From contig NC_008817.1 in the NCBI RefSeq assembly GCF_000015665.1, positions 558,001-622,000 of the forward strand: a stretch of DNA of 64,000 bases. The letters run 5' to 3'. How positions within the stretch are numbered: the stretch's first letter is position 1; each line of letters begins with the position of its first letter. The position numbers were made by a program, and so were the translations under genes. The DNA is from Prochlorococcus marinus str. MIT 9515. Lineage in GTDB: Bacteria; Cyanobacteriota; Cyanobacteriia; PCC-6307; Cyanobiaceae. Below, piece after piece: positions 56,775 through 59,804 of this stretch. Below the pieces are notes generated by a model. It was given only the letters and a program-made list of their open reading frames with translations. It did not search any database and was not told the DNA's origin.

Positions 56775-58091
56775 TTAATTAATTAGTTTTTCAAGATCAT
56801 CCCAAAAAGTTGGATACGATACATTAGAAGCCCCTGCTCTTGCAATCCTTGTCGAGCCCTTAGCTAAAAGTGATGCTATTGCAAGGCTCATCGAGACTCG
56901 ATGGTCAGTTTCACTGTCAACTTCAGCAGAATGGAATTTAGACTCGCCAGTTATTATTAAACCGTCTTCTTTCTCAGTAATATTTGCACCAAATTTTTTA
57001 AGTTGTCTGGCCATAACTTTTAATCGGTCGGTTTCTTTAACTCTTAATTCTTTTGCATCTTTAATTTCTGAAACCCCATTGCAAAAACAAGCTGCAACCG
57101 TAAGTATTGGAATTTCGTCTATGAGTTTTGGAAGGATATCACCTTGTACTTTAAAAGGTTTCAAATTACTTACATATTTTACCTTTATAGAACCTATGGG
57201 TTCGCCTGCAATAGTTGATTTTTCAATTATTTTATAATCGCATCCCATTTCATCCATAACATGTAATATCCCCGTTCTTGTTGGATTTAGGCCTACATTT
57301 TTAACCAAGATTTCAGATTCAGGCACTATTGATGCTGCAATCATCCAAAAAGCTGCTGAGCTGATGTCTCCTGGGATCAATATATTTTGACCGGTTAAAT
57401 TATTACCTGATTTTATTACTATATTTCTTCCTAATTCCCCTCTTATTTTTATGTCAGCCCCGAATGCTTTAAGCATTCTTTCAGTATGATCTCTGGAAGA
57501 GGCAGGTTCAATAACCGAAGTAGTTCCAGAGGCATTTAACCCTGCTAGTAAGATTGCAGACTTAACTTGAGCACTTGCAACCGGAGTTCCAATGACGCAA
57601 CCCTTTAGTTTGTTCCCCGTTATGGAAATTGGAGCTTTTGTACCATTTTCTCTTCCATAAATTTTCCCTCCCATTAATGATAGTGGCTTACTAACTCTTC
57701 CCATTGGTCTTTCATTAAGAGATTTGTCTCCAGTTAATATGAAATTCCTATCTGTTTGACCAGCCAAAAGTCCCATTAATAATCTCATTGTGGTACCTGA
57801 ATTACCACAATTAAGAATTTCTTTAGGTTCTCTAAATCCATCAATACCTAAACCTCTAATGGTAAAAGGCTGATCCTTTTTAATTTCAGGAATATGTACA
57901 CCTAATTTTCTTAGACAATCAGCAGTTGAAAGTGGGTCTTCAGAATATAAAAAACCTTCAATATTAGTTTCACCTTCTGCAATACTTCCAATTATTAAAG
58001 ATCTGTGCGAGATTGATTTATCTCCAGGGACTTTTATTGTTCCTTGTAAACTCTTTTCACCTTTAACGGTGCGTATATCGTTTGTATTCAA
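56775..58091 (-). CDS. aroA: 3-phosphoshikimate 1-carboxyvinyltransferase (EPSP synthase)
   Basis: AroA joins shikimate 3-phosphate and phosphoenolpyruvate in the shikimate pathway. The 438-residue enzyme has [13 protein letters not shown] near residue 22, [17 protein letters not shown] near 93, [12 protein letters not shown] and the C-terminal [14 protein letters not shown]. The two-domain pattern is complete. Gly in GNSGTTMR and the following residues are of a normal glyphosate-sensitive or class II layout; I cannot assign the class. A 126-bp gap separates it from the divergent comB. Confidence 0.95.
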
Positions 58092-58166: not shown

Positions 58167-58195
58167 TTCAAAGTTAAGTAACTGTTTTCTATAAT
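58167..58195 (+). promoter_or_regulatory. Putative promoter of comB
   Basis: TTCAAA at 58167-58172 and TATAAT at 58190-58195 are spaced by 17 bp. Initiation near 58202 lies upstream of the ATT at 58218 but downstream of the only other near-cognate codon in that frame, CTG at 58182. This placement bears directly on the comB start. Confidence 0.45.
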
Positions 58196-58217
58196 ATTTA
58201 TAGCTTGCCTACTTACT

Positions 58218-58946
58218 ATTAATCTTTATTATTACCATGTTGCAGATGATGTCCTAGAAACGGATTCTGATATTGCTGTTGTTATTGATGTTTTAAGAGC
58301 GTCAACAACTATTTCTTGGGCATTAAAAAACGGTGCAGATTCAATTCAGTTTTTTTCTGATTTAGATCTATTGAAGGAAACTGCTGAAAGATGGGATGCC
58401 AATAAAAAATTAATGCTTGGCGAAAGAGGTGGAAAAAAAATTAATGGTTTTGATTTAGGGAATTCTCCATTATCTGTAACGAAAGAGAAAGTTCAGGGTA
58501 AAAGACTATTTATGAGTACAACGAATGGGACTAAATCATTAAAAAAGGTTCAAAATGTAAAATATTTATTTGCAATGGCTCTTCCAAATAGAAAAGCAGT
58601 TGCTGAAAGGATAATGTCTTTAAATAAAAAAAACGTACTTATACTTGGGAGCGGATGGGAGGGCTCTTATTCCTTGGAAGATTCCTTGGCTGCAGGAGCA
58701 CTCGCTTCTTACATAAAATATAATTTTAATAATGAAGTTAATATTTCTAATGATGAATTGCAGGCTTCATTAGCTCTTTGGAATACATGGAAGAACGATA
58801 TCCTAGGATGCTTGAAGACAGCGACTCACGGAAAAAGATTGACAAGTCTCGGTGACTACGATGATGATCTTAAGTGTTGTTCTGAACTTGATTGTTTAGA
58901 TATTGTTCCTACTCAATTTGAGAGAGGTGTAATTCGTGCCTCATGA
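58218..58946 (+). CDS. comB: 2-phosphosulfolactate phosphatase family protein, apparent ATT start
   Basis: ComB-family proteins remove phosphate from 2-phosphosulfolactate; the true role in cyanobacteria is not established. From 58218 the frame encodes 242 residues, the normal family length, with YYYHVADDV, then VIDVLRASTTISWAL (phosphate-binding start), LGERGGKKINGFDLGNSP, STTNGTKSL and LGSGWEGSYSLEDSLAAGA. No ATG, GTG or TTG precedes VIDVLRAS in this frame. The first ATG (58371) would remove 51 residues including that motif. I therefore take ATT, which directly precedes the conserved NLYYYHV and lies about 16 bases after the predicted transcription start. The next gene is 30 bp downstream. 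Confidence 0.75.
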   Translation: MNLYYYHVADDVLETDSDIAVVIDVLRASTTISWALKNGADSIQFFSDLDLLKETAERWDANKKLMLGERGGKKINGFDLGNSPLSVTKEKVQGKRLFMSTTNGTKSLKKVQNVKYLFAMALPNRKAVAERIMSLNKKNVLILGSGWEGSYSLEDSLAAGALASYIKYNFNNEVNISNDELQASLALWNTWKNDILGCLKTATHGKRLTSLGDYDDDLKCCSELDCLDIVPTQFERGVIRAS

Positions 58947-58976: not shown

Positions 58977-59804
58977 TTGACTGATTTTTTAGTTGCCGCT
59001 TTACAAATAACGAGTACTTCAAATGTTGAAACAAATTTTGCTGAAGCTGAGGAGCAGATTGAATTAGCCTCTAGAAGGGGTGCAGAATTAATTGGATTAC
59101 CTGAAAATTTTGCATTCCTAGGAGAAGATAATGAAAAATTAAGGTTGGCCTCTGAATTGGCAATAAAGTGTACTAATTTTTTAAAAACGATGTCTCAGCG
59201 ATATCAAGTCTTTCTTTTGGGTGGTGGTTATCCCGTTCCTGCAGGAGATAATAATCATACTTTTAACAGATCAGCCCTTTTTGGGAAAGATGGACAGGTT
59301 TTGGCCAAATATGACAAAATTCACCTTTTTGATGTTGATTTGCCCGATGGTAATTTATACAAAGAATCATCAACTATCCTATCAGGTAAAGAACATCCTC
59401 CAGTCGTAGACGTGCCGGGACTTTGCAAGATAGGGCTTTCTATTTGTTACGATGTAAGATTTCCCGAACTCTACAGAAACCTCTCTTTGAATGGTGCAGA
59501 ACTCATAATGATCCCAGCAGCTTTTACAGCCTTCACAGGTAAAGATCATTGGCAAATTCTACTTCAAGCAAGAGCGATAGAAAATACAGCTTATGTAGTA
59601 GCGCCTGCTCAAACAGGTATTCACTACGGGAGAAGGCAAAGTCATGGTCATGCCATGGTAATAGACCCATGGGGTACAGTTTTGTCTGATGCGGGGAAAA
59701 CACAGGGGGCAGCAATAGCTCCCGCTGATAAAGAAAGAGTAAAAAAGATAAGAGAGCAGATGCCAAGCTTAAAACATAGAAAAACGAAACTTTTCGCGGA
59801 ATGA
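58977..59804 (+). CDS. Carbon-nitrogen hydrolase (nitrilase superfamily, Nit-like amidase)
   Basis: This 275-residue enzyme has the complete nitrilase triad: E43 (LPENFAF), K114 (YDKIHLFDVD) and C157 (SICYDVRFPELYR). The HLFDVD and RFPELYR motifs are those of the Nit1/Nit2 branch, whose members deaminate dipeptide-like or deaminated glutathione or omega-amides. That last link is family knowledge, not shown here. The start is TTG, with the conserved first strand right behind. It overlaps the amidase gene by 4 bp (ATGA). Confidence 0.88.
   Translation: MTDFLVAALQITSTSNVETNFAEAEEQIELASRRGAELIGLPENFAFLGEDNEKLRLASELAIKCTNFLKTMSQRYQVFLLGGGYPVPAGDNNHTFNRSALFGKDGQVLAKYDKIHLFDVDLPDGNLYKESSTILSGKEHPPVVDVPGLCKIGLSICYDVRFPELYRNLSLNGAELIMIPAAFTAFTGKDHWQILLQARAIENTAYVVAPAQTGIHYGRRQSHGHAMVIDPWGTVLSDAGKTQGAAIAPADKERVKKIREQMPSLKHRKTKLFAE

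Follow-up and report, generated by a model that had tools for sequence, protein, structure and literature searches.

In Escherichia coli, infC begins with an AUU codon and encodes IF3, by which its own expression is autoregulated. Outside infC, genes with an AUU start are few according to a study on start codon switches in prokaryotes, which recorded one change to AUU for 61,358 ancestral AUG starts and found non-AUG starts to be accompanied by stronger Shine-Dalgarno (SD) sequences (PMC5622118). For cvfC1 of Staphylococcus, another report describes a conserved AUU start with a strong extended SD on the basis of ribosome profiling and reporters (PMC13009471). The comB gene of Prochlorococcus considered here resembles E. 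coli infC in that its putative AUU start is conserved and weak initiation is to be expected, but it is a metabolic enzyme gene and its product is not IF3. With cvfC1 it would share a conserved AUU start outside infC together with a conserved SD; in contrast to cvfC1, the SD of comB is mostly 5-6 nt, and it is missing in the clade of the strain under study. As in the AUU switch recorded in PMC5622118, a standard start would have been replaced by AUU, whereas in comB ATT or ATC is found at the start position in 171 core genomes (defined below), 98 of which also carry an upstream TTG. The association of non-AUG starts with stronger SDs stated in the same source fits the core relatives outside the clade of our strain. 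Neither for comB nor for any Prochlorococcus gene was an AUU start mentioned in the titles and abstract openings listed by a literature search; subscription literature was outside the scope of this search, which is no proof of absence. comB would add to the known non-canonical starts and would be unusual in its breadth.

Prochlorococcus belongs to the commonest photosynthetic cells on Earth. The whole stretch of DNA that was analysed, called the window in the following, comprises 64,000 nt (positions 558001-622000 of a single-contig 1.70-Mb genome). The coordinates of comB and of the features discussed below are compiled in Table 1. By its whole-length match to the equivalog model NF002053 (418.4 bits with a cut-off of 319; profile positions 2-243 of 243 against residues 2-242), the product of the gene is ComB, predicted to be of the 2-phosphosulfolactate phosphatase family. 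Read from ATT, the protein also matches PF04029 over its cut-off (7.7e-75), and it scores 135.7 with the narrower model TIGR00298, which is under the cut-off of 175.05. At eight Prochlorococcus sp. loci ComB is 79-89% identical. Since NF002053 spans nearly all of the ATT-initiated protein, the start of the family falls at ATT 58218. The initial annotation had proposed exactly this codon as the start of comB and as the place where family members normally begin; the second point agrees with the alignment of NF002053 from residue 2 and with the ATG found at the same position in sister genera.

Table 1. Features at the 5′ end of comB (positions in the window; position 0 denotes the proposed start codon, and other codons are counted from it)
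Feature	Position	Strand	Remarks
-35-like element TTCAAA	58167..58172	+	17 nt ahead of the -10 box
-10 box TATAAT	58190..58195	+	Present in 170/171 core genomes; TATACT in L182
Predicted 16-nt leader	58202..58217	+	Without Shine-Dalgarno in this strain
Out-of-frame mini-ORF TTG CCT ACT TAC TAT TAA	58205..58222	+	Stop overlaps ATT
Codon -2	58212..58214	+	CTT in the window strain
Proposed start codon ATT (position 0)	58218..58220	+	ATT/ATC in core genomes, ATG in most sister-genus genomes
comB	58218..58946	+	2-phosphosulfolactate phosphatase family (predicted); 242 codons from ATT, plus stop
First standard in-frame start, TTG	58371..58373	+	Drops 51 residues including VIDVLRAS

The comB frame contains a TAA at 58179 and is then open up to the stop codon at 58944-58946. 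From 58182 onward its codons read CTG TTT TCT ATA ATA TTT ATA GCT TGC CTA CTT ACT ATT AAT CTT TAT, and it was confirmed that no ATG, GTG or TTG occurs ahead of the VIDVLRAS motif. The first standard start codon, which had been described as an ATG at 58371, lies at this position and would indeed cost the motif, but it is a TTG. Likewise, the CTG at 58182 had been taken for the sole near-cognate codon upstream, which does not hold, since in-frame ATA codons are also present at 58191, 58194 and 58200; all three lie ahead of the point near 58202 at which transcription is predicted to begin. The lack of an in-frame standard start ahead of 58371 might suggest that comB is decaying, or that translation from TTG 58371 yields a truncated protein as its sole product. 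This is very improbable, as the short form would be devoid of VIDVLRAS and of PF04029 profile positions 13-48 (the match begins at profile position 49 for the product from 58371 and at position 13 for the full form), internal stops are absent among the matches listed, and purifying selection is seen in codons 3-51 and later. The mean numbers of changes at codon positions 1, 2 and 3 are 1.27, 0.92 and 6.88 in codons 3-51, and 2.11, 0.89 and 6.58 later in the gene; judged by these counts, comB is clearly under purifying selection from its very beginning.

For a comparison with relatives, comB was matched in 215 of 266 genomes of the genus, and its 5′ end was fetched for 180 of them, the other 35 being left out. 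Two loci cut by a contig end (L188 and L190) were dropped, which gave 178 genus genomes including the window genome. Seven of these form a basal set (L181, L183-L187 and L189), and the remaining 171, with one genome per species, are referred to as the core. A tree was built from 78 full genes of the 178 (71 of them core), with 11 of its 75 inner branches starred as well supported, and 100 short core pieces are off the tree. Position 0 is ATT in 165 and ATC in six core genomes, and no core genome has ATG there. The sister genera, represented by 40 genomes taken from the better matches, show ATG at the same position in 36 cases, GTG in three and CTG in one. The ATT of comB therefore occupies the place of the Met codon of the family and corresponds by homology to the ATG with which comB begins in the sister genera. 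A usable in-frame ATG, GTG or TTG is missing from the predicted leader in 72 of the 171 core genomes, which is not so in the other 99. With the same organisation recurring in so many relatives, a sequencing or assembly error that erased an upstream start, as considered by the initial annotation, is hardly credible.

The codon that calls for closest attention is codon -2. All seven basal genomes have a standard start there (ATG 1, GTG 1, TTG 5), and their position 0 is ATT in two and TTA or TTT in five; for both reasons this upstream start is very likely used in the basal set. Among core genomes, codon -2 is TTG in 98, TTA in 17, CTG in 13, TCG in nine and CTT in eight, with a few others and one TAA (L099), so that TTG is absent in 73 of 171. 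An in-frame ATG or TTG elsewhere in related strains had been named as an argument against the ATT. This applies in part, to these 98 core and seven basal genomes, but the window strain itself has CTT, and the upstream TTG of its relatives is no rescue for it or for the other genomes without TTG. On the 78-gene tree, codon -2 has switched between standard and other codons at least 19 times, with at least five switches forced by the starred branches. Four core genomes, of which three lack TTG at -2, have an in-frame stop at codon -4, and one has it at codon -2. It could be argued that TTG at -2 is the true start wherever it is present, with ATT as an inner Ile codon, and that only the strains lacking TTG fell back on AUU. 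The uniformly standard codon -2 of the basal members, five of them with TTA or TTT at position 0, and the retention of TTG by more than half of the core genomes speak for this reading; the many replacements of this TTG among the 171 core genomes, never by ATG or GTG, and the position of the SD, described below, speak against it. We consider it rather unlikely. As a separate observation, the sister-genus genome in which CTG takes the place of the family start (L220) has a GTG two codons upstream, and its lineage may, by the look of the sequence, represent another case of a start moved to codon -2.

An SD match of at least 5 nt is present in 129 of the 148 core genomes outside the clade of the window strain (window clade, comprising 23 genomes of the tree), and in one of the 23 genomes within it. 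Outside the window clade, the aligned SD lies 5 nt from position 0 in 108 genomes and 6 nt in 17, the four others having 4, 7, 11 and 17. Outside the window clade, the SD was found in 82 of 96 core genomes with TTG at -2 and in 47 of 52 without it, with much the same spacing, and this unchanged distance favours position 0 in both groups. Measured to TTG at -2, the same SD would have a spacing of -1 to 0, which is too close. For comparison, an SD of at least 5 nt precedes 23 of 271 other genes with an ATG start in the genome, at spacings of 6-18. With a rougher choice of starts, an SD was seen in 28 of 286 ATG genes at spacings of -3 to 20, two of the 28 being below 4; close SDs are thus not unheard of in the rougher gene set, which counts against the spacing argument.

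Codon -1 is ATT in 120 core genomes, ATC in 35, ACT in ten, ACC and GCC in two each, and GTT and AGC in one each. With ATT or ATC there in 155 of 171, a start at -1 is conceivable in most relatives, which counts against position 0; either both codons of this tandem AUU-AUU would be used, or chiefly the first one. In line with this, the A of codon -1 changes only once on the tree. However, the SD spacing to codon -1 is mostly 2-3, the window strain has ACT at this place, and others have ACT, ACC, GCC, GTT or AGC, which makes this use of codon -1 improbable.

Within the 71 core genes on the tree, the fewest changes required per nucleotide are 19 at -4, then 1, 5 and 5 from -3 to -1, and 0, 0 and 3 over the ATT. 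As far as these counts tell, the constraint acts on the start region and not on the upstream TTG. Nevertheless, the three changes at the ATT position compare with 2-12 at nine conserved Ile columns, so that ATT is just slightly better conserved than ordinary Ile codons, which counts against its reading as a start. ATA is missing at position 0, and one of the nine Ile columns is without ATA as well. Two further features were set aside. The missing ATG at position 0 is suggestive of selection for a weak start but not significant, as nine of 19 comparable T-majority fourfold columns in the 71 genes are also without G. The di-pyrimidine directly ahead of position 0 in 170 of 171 core genomes is not relied on either; present at 73 of the 271 ATG genes used above for comparison, it is no general feature of such genes, which counts against the AUU reading, and it precedes 20 of the 40 sister-genus comB starts.

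Taken together, the homology to the ATG of the sister genera, the lack of a standard start, the placement of the SD in relatives and the conservation of the region support the initial proposal well for this strain, and we put the probability that comB is translated from a conserved AUU start at 58218 at roughly 85%. The core relatives that carry TTG probably start at AUU likewise. In this strain, the initiator tRNA would read AUU 58218 as (formyl)methionine on an mRNA that a conserved promoter is predicted to start some 16 nt ahead of this codon. The genus ancestor would have lost the ATG, with an upstream ATG, GTG or TTG at -2 serving temporarily; in the main clade AUU would then have taken over, mostly aided by an AAAGGA SD, whereupon TTG decayed repeatedly. 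Weak initiation at AUU should hold the ComB level low, and AUU may have been retained in order to limit ComB expression. If the AUU start is real, an ordinary enzyme gene has kept it across a whole clade, and the upstream TTG, which gene finders might choose in over half of the genomes, would be a decaying relic. Automatic gene finders may then misplace the start of comB, a warning for annotated N-termini. The genomes would also provide a natural series for AUU initiation in cyanobacteria, ranging from ATG over TTG plus ATT and ATT with SD to ATT without SD.

The promoter proposed earlier, with TTCAAA and TATAAT separated by 17 nt, was recovered at 58167-58195. Taken alone this match is weak, as 251 bases contain four promoter-like sites where shuffled sequences have 1.8 on average; across the relatives, TATAAT (or TATACT) sits 26-32 nt ahead of ATT in all 171 core genomes. 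With the transcription start placed 7 nt past TATAAT, the predicted leader measures 14-20 nt in the core. A leader structure received no support: when the first 89 nt were folded, 155 of 200 shuffles did equally well (z 0.82). Directly ahead of the -10 box, at 58175-58189, the 15 bases TAAGTAACTGTTTTC are each at least 96% conserved in the 171 core genomes. The conservation of TAAGTAACTGTTTTC appears to exceed the needs of a plain spacer, and this element may be the site of a regulator.

Because the window sub-clade has lost the SD too, it must use an SD-independent route if it starts at AUU. For Prochlorococcus, initiation by ribosomal protein S1 or on leaderless mRNAs has been proposed (PMC5607370), and such routes are what the SD-less clade would need. 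A further candidate is the mini-ORF in Table 1. An out-of-frame start at nucleotide -13 is present in 13 of the 23 window-clade genomes (ATG in ten, TTG in three including this strain), and out-of-frame leader starts, wherever placed, were counted in 16 of 23 window-clade genomes versus 2 of the 148 other core genomes. The mini-ORF would be situated very close to the predicted 5′ terminus of the mRNA. A ribosome stopping at its UAA, which overlaps AUU as AU-UAA-U, would re-start on AUU. Caution is due, as this UAA, present in 165 of 171 core genomes, is supplied by the conserved ATT AAT in any case; the pattern may also reflect few events, since it lies in one clade. Moreover, the ATG at -13 could be a relic of AAAGGA turned into AATGG, which counts against re-initiation. 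A comB start by termination and re-initiation after the mini-ORF is considered quite improbable for the window sub-clade.

The initial annotation had further connected the ATT start with IF3-dependent control, for which no support was obtained. infC was matched in 19 of the 25 genus genomes searched. Of 17 loci fetched, one was cut short, and in all 16 readable ones infC starts with an ATG that directly follows an in-frame TGA. The infC of the window genome (L258, near 1608156) has an ATG start as well, and no AUU. The autoregulatory feedback of infC in E. coli therefore has no counterpart at infC of this genus, and no link between comB and IF3 was found in this analysis.

How unusual comB is within its own genome was assessed in a sample consisting of the window and 20 further stretches (464 kb of 1,704 kb) with 407 heuristically called, uncurated genes, each scored by how strong a coding signal precedes the first ATG, GTG or TTG. 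comB ranks first of the 407 with a score of 36.4, followed by 35.2 for the second and 12.9 for the third gene. The second-ranked gene (L280:7671-8542, corresponding to 967671-968542; score at L280:7880) has a coding signal that extends for 75 codons ahead of the first standard start, and it adjoins an ATG-started ORF of 73 aa in another frame; perhaps the two belong to a single gene with a frameshift, or the frame has been disrupted. In both neighbours of comB, at 58091 on the minus strand (which we take to be aroA) and at 58977 on the plus strand (presumably a carbon-nitrogen hydrolase-like gene), TTG is the first mechanical start, and three adjacent genes may thus, from their sequences, begin without ATG.
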